A DNA stretch of 43,113 nucleotides, from the NCBI GenBank assembly GCA_946616835.1, contig CAMOJK010000011.1, positions 1 to 43,113 on the forward strand, written 5' to 3'. The DNA is from an uncultured Lachnospiraceae bacterium. GTDB taxonomy: Bacteria; Bacillota; Clostridia; Lachnospirales; Lachnospiraceae. Positions 9,595 to 16,866 of the stretch are shown piece by piece; within the stretch, counting starts at the first letter, position 1; the number at the start of each line of letters is the position of its first letter. The position numbers were made by a program, and so were the translations under genes. Below the pieces are notes generated by a model. The model did not search any database, had not been told where the DNA came from, and worked only from the letters and a program-made list of their open reading frames with translations.

Positions 9595-9624
9595 TTAATT
9601 CCCTGAAAGATAATGTGATATAAT
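9595..9624 (+). promoter_or_regulatory. Candidate extended -10 promoter for cstA
   Basis: TGATATAAT at 9616-9624 matches an extended -10 element (TGn plus TATAAT at 9619-9624). The -35 region is poor (TTAATT at 9595-9600, 18-bp spacer). It lies between the rpe terminator and cstA and would give an untranslated leader of about 70 nt. Confidence 0.55.
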
Positions 9625-9704
9625 ACTGTGAAACAATGTCAAAAAGTTTTTCACATGAACAGAGTCTGTTTCAATTAAACAATTGAAAAAGCGAGGAAAC
9701 GGAA

Positions 9705-11132
9705 ATGATATCATTAATTCTTTCATTTGCAGTTCTTATAATCGGGTACATAGTATATGGCAGTATTGTTGAAAAGGTTTTTGCACCTGATGACAGAAAA
9801 ACACCGGCCTATACTAAACAGGATGGTGTAGACTTTATTCCCATGCCCACATGGAAGGCTTTTCTGGTACAGCTCCTTAATATCGCGGGCACCGGTCCTA
9901 TTTTTGGTGCGATAATGGGTGCGTGTTTTGGCCCTGTGGTTTTTCTCTGGATAATATTTGGTTCTGTTCTGGGGGGCGGAGTCCATGACTATATGTGCGG
10001 AATGATATCCGAAAGGCATGATGGCGCATCCATTGCAGAACTGAGCGGTATATATCTGGGCAAGGCCGCTAAGTGGTTCATGCGGGGATTTTCGGTTATT
10101 CTCCTGCTCCTTACGGGAACCGTATTTGTTAATTCTCCTGCGGCCCTTTTAGCAAGGCTTACACCGGAAGCTCTGGGAACGGGATTTTGGATCGTAGTGA
10201 TACTTTTGTATTATATTCTGGCTACCCTTCTTCCGATAGATAAGATAATAGGAAGGCTCTATCCTGTTTTTGGCGTGATACTGATCGTTATGGCTGTAGG
10301 AATACTTGGGGGCACTATAGCAGGAGGATACCACATTCCGGAGATCACGCTTCATAATCTCCATCCCGATAATCTTCCTGTATGGCCCTTTATGTTTGTG
10401 ACTGTGGCCTGCGGTGCGATATCGGGCTTTCACGCTACCCAGTCTCCTCTTATGAGTAAATGCATAACCTCTGAAAAACAGGGGCGGAAGGTTTTCTACG
10501 CTGCGATGCTGACAGAATCAGTCATAGCATTAATCTGGGCAGCCGGTGGTGTTGCCTTTTATGGAGCTACAGGAGGTCTCAGTGCGGCTATAGGAGAGAT
10601 GGGGCAGTCGGGTGTTGTTTATGACATTTCTACAGGAATGCTTGGGACTGCAGGCGGAATACTTGCAATCGTAGGCGTGATCGCATGCCCTATTACCTCC
10701 GGTGATACGGCATTCCGCTCGGCAAGACTTATACTGTCAGAGGTGACCGGACTGGATCAGAAACCGATACGCAACCGCCTTATCATAACCATACCGCTTT
10801 TAGGGCTGGGGGCAGTTCTTACACAGCTTGATTTCAATGTATTGTGGAGATATTTTTCCTGGAGTAATCAGACACTGGCCATGGTGGCACTTTGGGTTGC
10901 AACGGTATATTTGGTCAAAAATGCGAAAAAAATATATTACAGTCTTATGACAGCACTTCCTGCATCCTTTATGTCTGCGGTAAGTCTTACATATATTCTG
11001 ATGGCTGATGAGGGACTGGGACTGCCTTCGAATATAGCATATCCGGCCGGCATAGTATTTGCCGGCATACTCTTTGTGCTGTATTGTCTGGGTCTTGGCA
11101 GGGCAGCAAAGCATATTGAAGCTGAAAAATGA
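9705..11132 (+). CDS. cstA: CstA-family carbon starvation transporter (pyruvate/peptide)
   Basis: CstA proteins are multi-pass inner membrane transporters; the enterobacterial CstA and BtsT members take up pyruvate, and peptide uptake has also been proposed. The 475-residue protein carries the family signatures AGTGPIFGAIMGACFGP, HDYMCGMISERHDGASIAEL, GFHATQSPLMSKC and CPITSGDTAFRSAR, with a dozen or more hydrophobic segments. It is the short form, lacking the extra C-terminal helices of the roughly 700-residue E. coli protein. ATG 9705 follows GCGAGGAAAC. It has its own candidate promoter. Substrate is inferred from family only. Confidence 0.9.
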   Translation: MISLILSFAVLIIGYIVYGSIVEKVFAPDDRKTPAYTKQDGVDFIPMPTWKAFLVQLLNIAGTGPIFGAIMGACFGPVVFLWIIFGSVLGGGVHDYMCGMISERHDGASIAELSGIYLGKAAKWFMRGFSVILLLLTGTVFVNSPAALLARLTPEALGTGFWIVVILLYYILATLLPIDKIIGRLYPVFGVILIVMAVGILGGTIAGGYHIPEITLHNLHPDNLPVWPFMFVTVACGAISGFHATQSPLMSKCITSEKQGRKVFYAAMLTESVIALIWAAGGVAFYGATGGLSAAIGEMGQSGVVYDISTGMLGTAGGILAIVGVIACPITSGDTAFRSARLILSEVTGLDQKPIRNRLIITIPLLGLGAVLTQLDFNVLWRYFSWSNQTLAMVALWVATVYLVKNAKKIYYSLMTALPASFMSAVSLTYILMADEGLGLPSNIAYPAGIVFAGILFVLYCLGLGRAAKHIEAEK

Positions 11133-11195
11133 TATGACTGGTGATACGGAATCTAATGATTGGTCAAAATAATCAATAAGAAAAGAGGAAGATTA

Positions 11196-13607
11196 ATGAG
11201 AAGAGTAAAGAATAGGAAGAACCAGGGAAGATGCTTCATGTTACTGACTTTTGCGATGGCTGCGGTTATTGGTCTGGCAGGAATAGCCGGCTGCGGCAAA
11301 GCAGAGCCTGCTCCGCTTTCTGAATATTGGTCTGCTGATTCTGCAGCGGCAGAAAGTCTGAAGAGTTATGTGTCAAAGGTTACGGATGAGAATGATACGG
11401 AAAACTTTATTCCAGTAAAGGACCGGATAGCTGTATTCGATATGGACGGTACCCTTACCTGCGAGACTTATTATACTTACTATGACACTATGATGTTCAT
11501 AAACTATTGCCTGGTGGATCACCCTGAGAGAGTATCGGATGACCTGAAGGCAGCGGCTGCAGAGATAAAGCCGGGATATACCGCAGGGGAGGAATTAGCA
11601 AGAAATTTTGCAAAAGCCTATGCCGGGATGACTGTGCAGGAGCTGTATGACTATGCTGCAGAGTTTGGGCAGAAAGAGACTGAGAGCTTTAATAATATGA
11701 GATATATCGACGGCTTCTACCTGCCCATGGTTGAGGTGGTGAAGTATCTTTACGACAATGGCTTTACGATATATGTGGTCAGCGGCACGGAACGCACTAC
11801 CACCAGGGCGATAGTGGCAAATTCTCCTATCAGCGAATATGTGACACCAAATCATGTAATAGGAACTGAGTTCGAGGTAAAAATAAAGGGGAACGAGGAT
11901 GTTCCGTCAAATATGGATTATAAATATGCAGATGGTGATGAGCTGGTATTTACCGGCGGATTTATCCAGAAAAATCTGAATGCCAATAAGACCATCTGGA
12001 TAGAAAGAGAGATAGGACAGATGCCGGTGCTTGCCTTTGGCAACAGTGGAAGCGACACCAGCATGATGAACTATGTGCTGGATGAGAGGAATCCTTACCC
12101 TTCTGAAGCCTATATGATCGTGGCAGATGATGATGTCAGGGAATGGGGCACACAGGATTGGAATGAAAAATCCGCTGCATATATTGAGCAGGGATATGTA
12201 CCGATCTCAATGAAAAATGATTTCTTAAAGATTTATCCCGACAATATTACCAGGGCTGATGAGCAGTACAATGAAATTGAAACAGATAATGCGGCTGATT
12301 CAAATGTTGTACAGTTAAGCGACCATACGGCGGATTCAAATGAAAGCGTGCAGGAGGTTTACGAGGCTCAGGATGAAAATCTAAGGTCGTCACTTTCACA
12401 TGAGGGATATTCCCTTGAGCAGGTTGTTGTCTTAAGCCGCCATAATATCCGTGCACCTTTGTCAGGAGCGGGATCTGCTCTGGATACCATTACTCCTCAT
12501 GAGTGGTTTGACTGGTCCTCCGAGGCAAGCCAGCTCTCGGTGAGGGGCGGTAATCTTGAAAATGAAATGGGACAGTATTTCAGGAAGTGGCTTGAGGCTG
12601 AGGGGGTGTTTCCGGCAAATTACCAGCCCTCGGAAGATGCCGTGAGAATATATGCCAATTCAAAGCAGAGGACTATCGCCACAGCGCGTTTTTTCGCAGC
12701 CGGCCTTCTGCCTGTTTCTAATACAGAGGTGGAGTATCATTCGGATTTTGACACGATGGATCCGGTGTTCAACCCTGTTTTTACATATATGTCAGATGAT
12801 TATATGGCAGATGCAGAGGGCGAAATACATGAAAATTTCGATTCCGTGATCACCGGGTTAGAGGACAACTATGACCTGTTAGGGGAAGTAATTGATGTGG
12901 AAGAGTCTGATGATTATAAAAAAGGTGTGTTTACAGGTTTTTTAACGGATGACTCTGTATTTACATTTGAAGAAGGAAAGGAACCTTCTGTCAGCGGTTC
13001 ACTGAAAACAGCCTGCCAGATAAGCGATGCCCTCGTTTTGCAGTATTATGAGGAGCCGGATGATGAAAAGGCGGCTTTTGGACATGAACTTTCCGAAGCA
13101 GACTGGGAAGCGATATCCGAGATAAAGGATGTGTATGGGGATGTGCTTTTTACTTCTCCTTCTATTGCAGTTAATGTGGCTCATCCTCTTCTTGAAGAGA
13201 TTAATAATGAACTTAATACAAAGGGACGGAAATTTACCTTTTTATGCGGACATGATTCCAATCTGGCAAGCGTTCTTTCTGCACTGGAGGTGGAAGAGTA
13301 CAGTCTTCCGGGTACTATAGAGAAGAAAACTCCTATAGGCGCAAAGCTTGTTATCAGCAGATGGAAAAATGCTGAAGGTGAGGAACTTATAGGTATGGAT
13401 CTGGTATACCAAAAGACTGGACAGCTGAGAGAAATGTCACTGCTTGATAATGATAATCCTCCCGCAATATACCCCCTGCATTTTGTGGGGATAAGTGCGG
13501 ATGAAAATGGTCTGTACAAGGCAGAAGATGTAATGCAGCGTCTTAATGATGCTATAAGCAGTTATGATGAACTGATCGAAGAATACGAGCAGGATGAGGC
13601 TGCCTGA
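11196..13607 (+). CDS. Lipoprotein fusing a HAD phosphatase to a histidine acid phosphatase (phytase/Agp-like)
   Basis: This 803-residue protein is predicted to be a surface lipoprotein: a basic N-terminus, a hydrophobic segment and a lipobox ending at Cys33 (LAGIAGC). Residues about 75-350 form a HAD domain with DMDGT (82-86), SGT (196-198), a candidate motif III Lys265 and GNSGSD (282-287). Residues about 390-790 form a branch-2 histidine acid phosphatase with the nucleophile motif RHNIRAP (415-421) and the proton-donor motif GHDSN (685-689). The Asn after the active-site His recalls glucose-1-phosphatase (Agp) rather than AppA phytase. All key residues of both active sites are present. ATG 11196 follows GAGGAA (11185-11190); an upstream in-frame TTG at 11160 is unlikely. 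It lies 63 bp after cstA and may share its transcript. A role in scavenging phosphate from external phosphomonoesters is inferred. Confidence 0.88.
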   Translation: MRRVKNRKNQGRCFMLLTFAMAAVIGLAGIAGCGKAEPAPLSEYWSADSAAAESLKSYVSKVTDENDTENFIPVKDRIAVFDMDGTLTCETYYTYYDTMMFINYCLVDHPERVSDDLKAAAAEIKPGYTAGEELARNFAKAYAGMTVQELYDYAAEFGQKETESFNNMRYIDGFYLPMVEVVKYLYDNGFTIYVVSGTERTTTRAIVANSPISEYVTPNHVIGTEFEVKIKGNEDVPSNMDYKYADGDELVFTGGFIQKNLNANKTIWIEREIGQMPVLAFGNSGSDTSMMNYVLDERNPYPSEAYMIVADDDVREWGTQDWNEKSAAYIEQGYVPISMKNDFLKIYPDNITRADEQYNEIETDNAADSNVVQLSDHTADSNESVQEVYEAQDENLRSSLSHEGYSLEQVVVLSRHNIRAPLSGAGSALDTITPHEWFDWSSEASQLSVRGGNLENEMGQYFRKWLEAEGVFPANYQPSEDAVRIYANSKQRTIATARFFAAGLLPVSNTEVEYHSDFDTMDPVFNPVFTYMSDDYMADAEGEIHENFDSVITGLEDNYDLLGEVIDVEESDDYKKGVFTGFLTDDSVFTFEEGKEPSVSGSLKTACQISDALVLQYYEEPDDEKAAFGHELSEADWEAISEIKDVYGDVLFTSPSIAVNVAHPLLEEINNELNTKGRKFTFLCGHDSNLASVLSALEVEEYSLPGTIEKKTPIGAKLVISRWKNAEGEELIGMDLVYQKTGQLREMSLLDNDNPPAIYPLHFVGISADENGLYKAEDVMQRLNDAISSYDELIEEYEQDEAA

Positions 13608-13653
13608 TAAAATAAGAGGTGAATAAAAAACAGATAATTGATGGCAGAGTATA

Positions 13654-13662
13654 TGTTATAAT
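13654..13662 (+). promoter_or_regulatory. Extended -10 promoter upstream of the STAS gene
   Basis: TGTTATAAT reads TGn followed by a perfect TATAAT (13657-13662). No good -35 is visible 16-18 bp upstream. The leader to the STAS start would be about 90 nt and holds a palindrome TTGCGCAA at 13690-13697. Confidence 0.55.
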
Positions 13663-13759
13663 AGAGCGATAGAATAACAGATAGCTTTATTGCGCAAAGA
13701 AAGAATACAGGTGACGGATTTCTTGGCGTAGCCGCATGAACGCGGCGGAAAGGAGAAAT

Positions 13760-14056
13760 ATGACAGTAAACAAAGAACTTAACGGAAGCGAACTTGTTGT
13801 CAGTGTGGCAGGAAGGATTGATACCACAACTGCTCCGACACTTGAGGCAGAGATAAAGGAAAGCCTTGAAGGTGTACAGAAACTTGTGCTGGATATAGCT
13901 GAAGTTGAATATGTTTCATCCGCCGGACTTCGTGTATTTCTTTCCACACACAAGATTATGTCAAAGCTGGGTGGCATGGTGATAAAGAATGTTTCGGAGA
14001 GCGTTAAGGAAATATTTGAAGTAACCGGGTTCGCAGATATCCTTACTATTGAATGA
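13760..14056 (+). CDS. STAS-domain anti-sigma factor antagonist
   Basis: This 98-residue single STAS-domain protein belongs to the SpoIIAA/RsbV family. It carries the phosphorylatable serine motif VSSAGLRVFL and the typical N-terminal strand GRIDTTTAPTLEAEI. In partner switching the unphosphorylated form binds and inhibits an anti-sigma kinase and so frees a sigma factor or another target. ATG 13760 follows AAGGAG (13750-13755); an earlier in-frame ATG at 13736 overlaps the ribosome binding site. The gene directly downstream encodes a SpoIIE-type phosphatase that could dephosphorylate it. No anti-sigma kinase or sigma gene lies in the window. Confidence 0.93.
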   Translation: MTVNKELNGSELVVSVAGRIDTTTAPTLEAEIKESLEGVQKLVLDIAEVEYVSSAGLRVFLSTHKIMSKLGGMVIKNVSESVKEIFEVTGFADILTIE

Positions 14057-14193
14057 TTCATTTTTATATATAAGGAACAGGATCGGATCATGTGCTCCGT
14101 TATGAGCGCTTGTTTCCGGTCCGGTATTTTTTCTGCCGATGTTATGGGCAAGGTTTACTCCTGCTTCAGCAAAAAATCTATGAAGGCAATAGT

Positions 14194-16230
14194 ATGTTTC
14201 TAATGATTCTGCAAATGACAGGCGTCACTTTCCTGTATGTTTTGCTTACAGTAGCATTGTGGTACCTGACAAGGAATAAAAAACTGAATCTGCCGGGCAA
14301 GGTTCTTATAGGTATCGTTTTTGGTATCAGTTCTATATTATCTACCCATTATGGCATAGCATTTGATAATATGGTCATTAACGTCAGGGATATCGGCCCT
14401 CTTGCGGCGGGGTTGTTCTTTTCGCCGACCGCAGGAATAATTGCCGGTCTTATGGGCGGTATTGAACGGTATATTGCGGGAACTTATTTTGGCGTTGGAT
14501 CATATACGCGAATCGCATGTAGTGTTTCGACCTGTCTGGCCGGCTTTGTTGCGCTCCTTATGAACCGCAAGATGTTTAAGGGGAAGAAGCCATCTCCTTT
14601 CTATGCTTTTTTTATGGGTGCGGTAATGGAAGTTTTCCATATGTATGTGGTATTCGTTACCCATAGGGACGATATGAGGATGGCATTTCTTGTGGTAAGT
14701 ACCTGCGCAATACCCATGATTATTTTTACCGGAATAGGTATGGCTGTATCATCAGGCTTGCTGCAGGTCTTTACCGGTGAATGGCATAATCCTTTCAGAA
14801 AGATTGACGAGGAAAGCGAATCTCTGTCTCAGAAGTTTCAGAGATGGTTGTTTCTTGTGGTTTCAATCGTAATACTCGGAAGTTTTCTGTTTTCTTTTAT
14901 TCTCCAGACACAGTCTGCTGATCAGGACTGCCGGCTTACGCTGACAGAAAACTATGAAACTATCAGGAGAAATTACCTGTCGGGGGAACGGTCTCTCCGG
15001 GCTGACAGTACGGTATCGTACTGCATCATTGGACCGAACAGGCAGATACTTAAAGGCGTGGACGGGGGAAAGGTGATGCCTGAGGAAGAGTATACCCGGT
15101 TGATGCAGAATCTGGGAATTATCAGCAAGGAAGATTTTAAGGGCGTCAGATCAATGGTATATGCAGACCGGCTGGATGTGAATACGATCCTTGTCACGGC
15201 AATGAGTATCAGTGAAGTGTACTGGTACAGGAATGCTCAGGCATACGAGCAGGCACTGGCTGATGTGCTTCTGTTTGCGGTCATCTATGTCCTTATAGCT
15301 TTTCTGGTAAATCAGATCGTTGTCAATAATATAAGGATGATCAACGAGTCTCTGGGAAAGATAACCAACGGAAATTTAAACGAGGTGGTATCGGTAAGAA
15401 ACTCATCGGAATTCGCATCATTATCCGATGATATCAACCAGACCGTTATGGCGCTGAAGGGCTACATTGATGCAGCTGAAAAGAGGATAGAACAGGAGTT
15501 AATACTTGCACGGACTATACAGGCCTCGGCTTTGCCTCAGGTATTTAAGTTCCCTGACAGGGAGGACCTCGAACTGTTTGCAACTATGAAGCCGGCAAAA
15601 GAAGTAGGTGGGGATTTTTATGATTTCTTCTTTGTGGACAGGGATAATATAGCGCTTGTTATAGCTGATGTTTCGGGTAAGGGAATACCTGCAGCCCTAT
15701 TCATGATGAGGAGTAAGACTGCTATAAGAAGCTATGCGAAGTCCGGAGGCACACCTGAGGAGATTATAGCCAAGGCAAATGATGCTCTGTGTGAAGGCAA
15801 TGATGCAGAGATGTTTGTTACGGTATGGATAGGAATTGTAGATATGGTTACGGGAAAAATGCGCTGCGCAAATGCCGGACATGAATATCCGGTGATAAAA
15901 CGGGCAGGCGGAGATTATGAAATTATAAAGGATGAACATACACTGCCGCTTGCAGCAATTCCCGGAATAAAGGCAAAACCTTATGAGGTACAGCTGCATC
16001 ACGGAGACCGGATATTTGTATATACCGATGGTGTACCGGAAGCGATAAATGATGCTGAGGAACAATACGGAACAGACAGGCTGCTCGCAGTGTTAAACAG
16101 CGTTAAGGATAAGAGCGTTACGGAAACACTGCCGGTAGTTTCGGAAAGCATAAATGAATTTAAGAAAGAGGCAGATCAGTTTGATGATATTACCATGTTG
16201 GGCTTTGAAATTATAAATCCAAAGGTATAA
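14194..16230 (+). CDS. Membrane SpoIIE-type PP2C phosphatase with LytS-like (5TMR-LYT) sensor and HAMP domain
   Basis: This protein of about 678 residues probably senses an envelope or small-molecule signal and dephosphorylates the adjacent STAS protein. Residues 1-195 hold about six membrane helices with the 5TMR-LYT pattern (NVRDIGPLAAGLFFSPTAG, GGIERYIAGTYFGVGSYTRI). A further helix (about 218-238), an extracellular segment (about 240-345), another helix (about 355-375) and a HAMP-like linker follow. The C-terminal SpoIIE domain has VGGDFYDFF (471-479), DVSGKG (492-497), NAGHEYP, YTDGVPEA and DDITML, so metal ligands are kept. I chose ATG 14194 because the MFLMILQ segment starts the first helix. 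A GTG at 14092 is in frame and would add 34 residues, so the start is uncertain. A strong terminator follows. Confidence 0.9.
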   Translation: MFLMILQMTGVTFLYVLLTVALWYLTRNKKLNLPGKVLIGIVFGISSILSTHYGIAFDNMVINVRDIGPLAAGLFFSPTAGIIAGLMGGIERYIAGTYFGVGSYTRIACSVSTCLAGFVALLMNRKMFKGKKPSPFYAFFMGAVMEVFHMYVVFVTHRDDMRMAFLVVSTCAIPMIIFTGIGMAVSSGLLQVFTGEWHNPFRKIDEESESLSQKFQRWLFLVVSIVILGSFLFSFILQTQSADQDCRLTLTENYETIRRNYLSGERSLRADSTVSYCIIGPNRQILKGVDGGKVMPEEEYTRLMQNLGIISKEDFKGVRSMVYADRLDVNTILVTAMSISEVYWYRNAQAYEQALADVLLFAVIYVLIAFLVNQIVVNNIRMINESLGKITNGNLNEVVSVRNSSEFASLSDDINQTVMALKGYIDAAEKRIEQELILARTIQASALPQVFKFPDREDLELFATMKPAKEVGGDFYDFFFVDRDNIALVIADVSGKGIPAALFMMRSKTAIRSYAKSGGTPEEIIAKANDALCEGNDAEMFVTVWIGIVDMVTGKMRCANAGHEYPVIKRAGGDYEIIKDEHTLPLAAIPGIKAKPYEVQLHHGDRIFVYTDGVPEAINDAEEQYGTDRLLAVLNSVKDKSVTETLPVVSESINEFKKEADQFDDITMLGFEIINPKV

Positions 16231-16267
16231 TTATGCAGCTGCTATAAGAAGAAAACAGGAGAATTGG

Positions 16268-16305
16268 ACCACCGTTTTCCCTCAGGGGAGGACGGTGGTT
16301 TTTTT
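16268..16305 (+). terminator. Rho-independent terminator after the SpoIIE-type phosphatase
   Basis: ACCACCGT (16268-16275) pairs perfectly with ACGGTGGT (16292-16299), with an inner CCTC/GAGG pairing and a tract of T residues to 16305. It separates the signalling genes from the mraZ operon. Confidence 0.93.
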
Positions 16306-16329
16306 ATGCATAAGCTGGTGAATTTTGCC

Positions 16330-16358
16330 TTGAAAAAAATACAAATGGGGATTAAAAT
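16330..16358 (+). promoter_or_regulatory. Housekeeping sigma promoter of the mraZ operon
   Basis: TTGAAA (16330-16335) and TAAAAT (16353-16358) are separated by exactly 17 bp. Predicted transcription starts near 16365, at the upstream edge of the phased repeat array before mraZ. Confidence 0.8.
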
Positions 16359-16366
16359 AGGAAATG

Positions 16367-16426
16367 TGGTGAAAAATGGTAAAAAATAGTAAATTGTGGC
16401 GAATGTTGGCGAATTATGGTGGAAAT
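16367..16426 (+). repeat. Six 10-bp tandem repeats, probable MraZ operator
   Basis: Six copies of a TGG-Y-R-AA-type decamer start at 16367, 16377, 16387, 16397, 16407 and 16417; copy 3 begins TAG and copy 6 reads TGGTGGAAAT. MraZ proteins are known to bind short TGG-containing direct repeats at about one-turn spacing upstream of their own gene. The array begins at the predicted transcription start and ends inside the ribosome binding site (GGTGGA, 16418-16423). An off-phase TGGGG lies upstream at 16346. Confidence 0.85.
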
Positions 16427-16428
16427 CT

Positions 16429-16866
16429 GTGTATAAAAGTGATTTTAACCATACAATTGATGAAAAAGGAAGAGTTATAATCCCGGCAAAGTTTAGAGAA
16501 CAGCTGGGATGTGGATTCGTCATAACTAAGGGATTAGACAGATGCCTTTGGATCCTGGATGCAGAAAGCTGGAATAAGCTGGAGTATAAGCTTCGCGGCA
16601 TGTCTGTTCTGAATCCGGTCACAAGAAAACTGCAGAGACATTTCAGTGCCAGCGCCATAGATGGAGAAACAGATAAACAGGGGCGCATACTTCTGCCACC
16701 TTCGTTAAGGGCATATGCGGAGCTTGATAAAGAAGTCCTTATCTGCGGAACGACAAACAGAATTGAAATATGGAACAGCAGATTGTTCGAGGAGAGCAAT
16801 TCGGGGCCTGAAGAGATCGCTGCATTTGCTGAGGAAACAGGGCTCGCTACGGATCTTTCATTCTGA
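16429..16866 (+). CDS. mraZ: Transcriptional regulator MraZ
   Basis: MraZ is a ring-forming DNA-binding protein of the AbrB/SpoVT fold that controls the division and cell wall cluster. The 145-residue protein has the two internal half-repeats with DEKGRVIIPAKFR and DKQGRILLPPSLR. GTG 16429 gives the family N-terminus MYKSDFNHTID and follows GGTGGA with 5-nt spacing. An upstream in-frame GTG at 16396 lies within the operator repeats and would add 11 unlikely residues (ANVGELWWKS). rsmH follows after 52 bp. Confidence 0.95.
   Translation: MYKSDFNHTIDEKGRVIIPAKFREQLGCGFVITKGLDRCLWILDAESWNKLEYKLRGMSVLNPVTRKLQRHFSASAIDGETDKQGRILLPPSLRAYAELDKEVLICGTTNRIEIWNSRLFEESNSGPEEIAAFAEETGLATDLSF

Follow-up and report, generated by a model that had tools for sequence, protein, structure and literature searches.

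Agp, the periplasmic glucose-1-phosphatase of Escherichia coli and Enterobacter (PDB 1nt4, 6rmr, 3ntl), is a stand-alone enzyme. AppA-type bacterial phytases (PDB 1dkp and others) carry the classical RHGxRxP motif. PchP, the phosphorylcholine phosphatase of Pseudomonas aeruginosa (PDB 4as2), is an exported single-domain HAD phosphatase whose motif is given as GDTPDSD in a passage of PMC3170909. The HAD hydrolase of Planctomyces limnophilus (PDB 4ovy) is a single domain of 310 residues without a histidine acid phosphatase (HAP), and its entry title gives no function. The window analysed here is a stretch of 43,113 nucleotides from an uncultured Lachnospiraceae bacterium (contig CAMOJK010000011.1). 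One of its genes encodes a predicted lipoprotein in which an Agp-like HAP forms the C-terminal half behind a HAD domain, unlike the stand-alone Agp. Each fold is known, as is its chemistry. Neither the union of the two in one chain nor its repeated emergence turned up in the titles and abstract openings of the open-licence papers searched.

The fusion gene and its two halves

The frame of 803 residues is unbroken from the ATG at 11196 to the stop at 13607. A mechanical list of open reading frames (ORFs) started it at a TTG at 11160; a ribosome-binding-like sequence, AGAGGAAG, lies 5' of the ATG. The features are given below, with model confidence as the predicted local distance difference test (pLDDT).

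11196..13607, + strand: HAD-HAP fusion gene, predicted lipoprotein of 803 aa; single open frame with homologues of the same architecture
11196..11294, + strand: signal peptide with lipobox-like IAGC, Cys33 the predicted lipidation site (read by eye)
11316..12263, + strand: HAD domain, residues 41-356 (D82, D84, S196, K265, N283, D287)
12264..12392, + strand: inter-domain linker, residues 357-399 (363-392 predicted disordered, pLDDT <50); low identity among relatives
12393..13595, + strand: HAP domain, residues 400-800, Agp-like (R415, H416, R419, R492, E596, H686, D687)

The first-pass annotation had described one lipoprotein joining a HAD phosphatase to a histidine acid phosphatase, and Pfam matches to both were found in the single frame. 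PF12710 (HAD) matched residues 79-291 (E 5.7e-10, 40.4 bits against a curated cut-off of 27) and PF00328 (His_Phos_2) matched residues 407-725 (E 5.1e-23, 82.5 bits against a cut-off of 23.6). The motifs it had listed are in place (DMDGT 82-86, SGT 196-198, GNSGSD 282-287, RHNIRAP 415-421 and GHDSN 685-689), as is K265. The HAD half thus has motifs I-IV as well as a profile score above the cut-off, and the HAP half has the catalytic set RHxxRxP ... HD. As in bacterial lipoproteins, the hydrophobic N-terminal segment ends, by eye, in a lipobox (IAGC33). A lipobox-like pattern was present in 15 of the 18 HAD-HAP rows scanned, near-duplicates included.

Both catalytic sets proved complete and conserved in a thinned alignment (A2) of the window protein and 82 of 104 references, with 61 rows in the HAD columns and 37 in the HAP columns. 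D82, D84, K265, G282, N283 and D287 were kept in 61/61 rows and S196 in 60/61; the first acidic position of HAD motif IV is therefore Asn283 in all 61. R415, H416, R419, P421, R492, H686 and D687 were kept in 37/37. The ratios of nonsynonymous to synonymous change (dN/dS) against the three nearest relatives were 0.021-0.024 for the HAD half, 0.077-0.107 for the HAP half and 0.14-0.22 for the linker, rough figures given that domain dS exceeded 1 for two of the three. They indicate purifying selection on both halves. The fusion is no assembly artefact, since independent assemblies also carry it, as do three named strains, Butyrivibrio sp. VCD2006, Lachnospiraceae bacterium C6A11 and Oribacterium sp. 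P6A1. The missed stop or frameshift near residues 350-390 that the annotation had itself considered is excluded for practical purposes.

An AlphaFold model built from an 83-row alignment had a mean pLDDT of 88.9 and two confident domains. The structure prediction proposed for the inter-domain segment returned residues 363-392 as disordered. The predicted template modelling score was 0.57, so the model does not fix the placement of the domains relative to each other. In blocks of 150 bases, nucleotide identity between the window (9600-12300 vs 12300-16800) and its nearest relative, L018, was 93-100% before about 12300, apart from a single block at 83%, and 69-94% beyond it. The drop coincides with the linker, as would be expected at the end of a recombination tract.

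By structure comparison the HAD half matched PDB 4ovy; the matches listed were mostly HAP-half folds, so nothing follows from the lack of further HAD-half folds among them. On profile, motifs and fold this half is a member of the HAD superfamily, and it belongs to the exported family of uncharacterised substrate that 4ovy exemplifies, a family to which the fusion lends context. A PchP profile matched it at E 2.9e-5, remotely and in part (profile positions 38-199 of 319, about half the domain). PchP is a single domain with GDTPDSD, whereas the window HAD has GNSGSD and is fused. Phosphocholine, one of the substrates suggested in the annotation, is thus hinted at remotely.

The HAP half appears glucose-1-phosphatase (Agp)-like rather than phytase-like. 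NCBIfam PRK10173 (Agp) was the top-scoring family with 345.2 bits, below its equivalog cut-off of 425. The Agp-type RHN variant is present, with N417 in 35/37 rows. E596 was found in 37/37 and aligns with Glu196 of Agp (counted by hand), which we take to be a functional marker of Agp. AppA-type phytases are 25-28% identical and have RHGxRxP where RHNIRAP is found here; the AppA-type family NCBIfam PRK10172 scored 158.8 bits against a cut-off of 585. A phytase identity is accordingly disfavoured, and inositol phosphate, another substrate proposed earlier, becomes less likely. The window genome (G000) has a second, stand-alone HAP (L002 / L175, contig C33, 85-1281), which is 58% identical and lies in a 518-residue frame adjoining the contig end. 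A further stand-alone HAP, with about 49% identity to the HAP half of the fusion, occurs on plasmids of Lacticaseibacillus paracasei/casei from milk, cheese and fermented dairy (H1-H4).

Repeated origin and exchange of partners

The loci were chosen for their similarity to the window protein and do not amount to a census. Their 160 distinct ORFs comprised 21 with HAP only, 16 HAD-HAP, one HAP-HAD, 21 with other partners and 101 HAD ORFs without a recognised partner, some of which may hide one as the Pfam scan covered only ORFs with long extra sequence. Fifteen of the HAD-HAP ORFs are intact; the sixteenth (L135, genome G733) is interrupted by a frame change inside HAD. This split (L135 / L203, contig C22) is a sequencing error or decay. 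In the genus of the window 11/35 genomes matched, five with the full fusion (G000, G026, G034, G008, G025). Matches were found in 32/397 genomes of the family sample, 36/392 of the order sample and 12/391 of the class sample, the window genome being counted each time. A scan with HAD-half patterns gave 462 relatives, and the best 80 held 11 HAD-HAP, one HAP-HAD (L070) and 68 HAD chains without HAP. Near relatives come from ruminant guts: ruminant-source keywords occurred in 46 of these 80 titles, including the isolate codes RUG and RUI, which we take to mean rumen. No plasmid place covered 80% of the fusion among 72,556 plasmid records.

The fusion seems to have arisen repeatedly. In the HAP tree (41 rows, careful) the HAD-HAP label changed at least three times across starred branches, and in the HAD tree (124 rows, quick, with long-branch warnings) at least four times; these changes may be gains or losses, and L040 has long branches in both trees. 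A single origin with plain descent for all fusions was rejected on two cases, the reversed order (HAP-HAD) of L070 and L006, whose HAD is 40% and whose HAP is 73% identical to that of the window. Together with the trees they imply that the two domains were joined independently three, probably four, times, unless domain replacement lowers the number; for L006, replacement after one fusion is the alternative to a separate joining. At the level of sequence the fusion, its complete active sites, the purifying selection and the recurrent joining can be regarded as established.

Both halves look like mix-and-match modules. HAD was joined to YkuD-like domains in L009 and L011-L013 (of these, L009 and L013 were scanned with Pfam, and L013 fell 0.1 bit short of the cut-off), to Peptidase_M15 (D-Ala-D-Ala dipeptidase) in both orders (L067, L080; L150), to DUF3089 (L078, L085, L090), to DUF3089 plus M15 (L048), to VanY-C39 (L127) and to the solute-binding SBP_bac_3 (L161). 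Further HAD partners were SLH, LysM, Big_2 and Cu_amine_oxidN1 segments. HAD genes also occur on Selenomonas ruminantium plasmids (two copies). HAP was joined in both orders to IU_nuc_hydro, an inosine-uridine nucleoside hydrolase (L110, L113), which hints at extracellular nucleotide salvage. In L158 / L230 (G1108) HAP is followed by a segment of about 390 residues without a Pfam match.

Proposed function

With moderate confidence we favour a bifunctional phosphomonoesterase, lipid-anchored outside the cytoplasm, that serves nutrient salvage and acts on organophosphates that we infer as its substrates. By analogy with its family, the HAD half would hydrolyse phosphate monoesters through an aspartyl-phosphate, with D82 as nucleophile, D84 as acid/base and D82, N283 and D287 as the metal site. 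The Agp-like half would act through a phosphohistidine at H416 with D687 as proton donor, and would prefer, as its relatives do, small monophosphates such as sugar 1-phosphates or nucleotides. The flexible linker would make this a single surface protein with two complementary specificities. Phosphate and a carbon moiety would be freed near the membrane, where a carrier such as CstA, if present, could import part of the carbon.

Unfused HAD and HAP genes share genomes far above expectation. In the family sample a HAD gene was found in 7/11 HAP-carrying genomes against 18/383 without HAP (Fisher 4.8e-7), and in the order sample in 8/11 against 23/379 (Fisher 8.9e-8); the counts, made by hand, exclude fused cases and G000, the samples overlap, at most two candidates were scored per genome, habitat and kinship are uncontrolled, and the HAP counted in G506 is an 81-residue fragment. 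Repeated fusion, reversed order and this co-occurrence together argue for functional coupling of the pair. Such repeated, order-reversed fusions of two fold-unrelated phosphatases are strong natural evidence for a common task. The coupling suggested in the annotation therefore stands, while the evidence does not call for a dedicated pathway that takes one multi-phosphorylated substrate through two steps, since HAD and HAP each have several other partners. We consider it more likely that the two halves act broadly and in parallel than that one molecule must pass through both sites in turn, because the linker is predicted to be flexible and each half has other partners elsewhere. The named strains with the fusion, whose record titles carry no MAG label, could make phosphate salvage by gut Bacillota directly testable, with a bearing on feed and manure phosphorus.

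The gene 5' of the fusion bears on the carbon step.

9705..11132, + strand: CstA-family transporter gene (Pfam PF02554), 63 bases 5' of the fusion gene

The gap is as annotated. A consensus scan found no promoter- or terminator-like site in 11133-11195 and two weak terminator-like matches inside the 3' end of cstA (11046-11066 and 11063-11081). The two genes are a possible transcription unit. CstA lies 5' of the gene within the window cluster (L003, L004, L005), and the adjacency recurs in three lineages beyond it. It was the first or second same-strand ORF upstream of the HAD-only genes L094 and L229 (the latter in G951, which belongs to a different family; a gap of about 450 bases separates the frames) and of the HAP-only gene L185 (G309; about 580 bases). 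For CstA within three genes in any slot outside the window cluster, 0.29-0.39 cases were expected (P 0.003-0.008), and for the 200 upstream same-strand slots 0.07-0.10 (P 6e-5 to 1.5e-4). The former P is the fairer as the upstream criterion was chosen after the cases were seen. Both expectations take each genome to have a single CstA gene (a hand count of ORFs gave 34 in 34 genomes; 28/34 carry one or two). The view that the adjacency is an accident of one clade, with no neighbours common beyond near relatives, was overturned by the three further lineages.

Several points weigh against the salvage phosphomonoesterase. HAD genes are mostly without HAP in the chain, as in the best 80 relatives, and the co-occurrence counts carry the limits given with them. 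The pattern scan found no lipobox-like pattern in the HAD-HAP rows L006, L023 and L040 nor in the reversed L070; with L006, L040 and L070 lacking it, anchoring varies. The flanks retrieved for the remaining fusion loci showed no CstA, and the fusion carriers G025 and G733 (the latter with the interrupted copy) gave no CstA match in their genomes. The proposed CstA link thus recurs in other lineages and is not general. The partners M15, YkuD-like and VanY point to cell-wall material and less to general organophosphate.

Alternative explanations and further neighbours

These wall-related partners raise the possibility that the HAD half acts on a phosphorylated wall part, for example teichoic-acid-derived phosphate, in the salvage of cell walls or necromass. 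HAP would then be an exchangeable member of a set with D-Ala-D-Ala dipeptidase, YkuD, VanY and solute-binding proteins. The HAD fusions to M15 (including L048), YkuD-like domains, VanY-C39 and SBP_bac_3 fit this. M15 genes were found at most three genes from 5/155 distinct loci against 0.2-0.3 expected (from 27 M15 matches in 34 genomes, assuming 2000-2700 genes per genome), although the five loci may share descent. A single YkuD-M15-SBP_bac_3 frame also adjoins HAD in L193 (7346-9670) and L224 (3459-5768). The window genome, however, which is 86% complete, gave no M15 match, and the partners may be nothing more than additional exported enzymes for salvage. Wall salvage is considered unlikely.

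It is equally doubtful that the fusion is a by-product of frequent shuffling of exported modules, in which the two halves share export and an anchor and are not otherwise coupled. Against this, the pair has been joined three times or more, or has survived domain replacement, it occurs in either order, and its unfused members are found in the same genomes. In favour are the many partners of HAD, the HAD genes on Selenomonas ruminantium plasmids and the recombination-like identity step at the linker. A dedicated sequential enzyme, whose two sites strip successive phosphates from one substrate such as inositol phosphates, nucleotides or bisphosphates, would explain why precisely these two phosphatases have been joined again and again, in either order, and why their unfused genes co-occur, but is improbable given that both halves join other enzymes, that the HAP half is Agp-like and that the linker is predicted to be disordered with no sign of a channel.

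More broadly, and tentatively, ruminant-gut Bacillota may share a surface salvage kit that is combinatorial and passes between them horizontally, with a small set of exported modules fused again and again in varying combinations and orders; the window protein would be one of its products. The modules would be the HAD phosphatase, Agp-like HAP, nucleoside hydrolase, D-Ala-D-Ala dipeptidase, YkuD, DUF3089 hydrolase and solute-binding protein, with CstA as carrier. If so, the fusions would be small covalent assemblies for removing phosphate from microbial necromass and importing the carbon.

Of the two Selenomonas ruminantium plasmid HAD genes, one adjoins a gluconate:H+ symporter, which like CstA is a carboxylate carrier, and the other has no such neighbour. 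From these carrier neighbours we infer phosphorylated carboxylates (phosphoenolpyruvate, phosphoglycerate, phosphogluconate) as possible candidate substrates. The neighbours of ten fusion loci had no common theme: chemoreceptor, carboxylesterase, nuclease-acetyltransferase, YjbR, clostripain-type peptidase, MscS, DUF3574, SpoIIE, ribosomal L1 and one without a match. Directly 3' of the fusion in the window (13736-16230) are a STAS-domain protein and then a 5TMR_LYT-SpoIIE phosphatase, also found in L003, L004 and L018. In L099 a SpoIIE gene lies directly 5' of the fusion.
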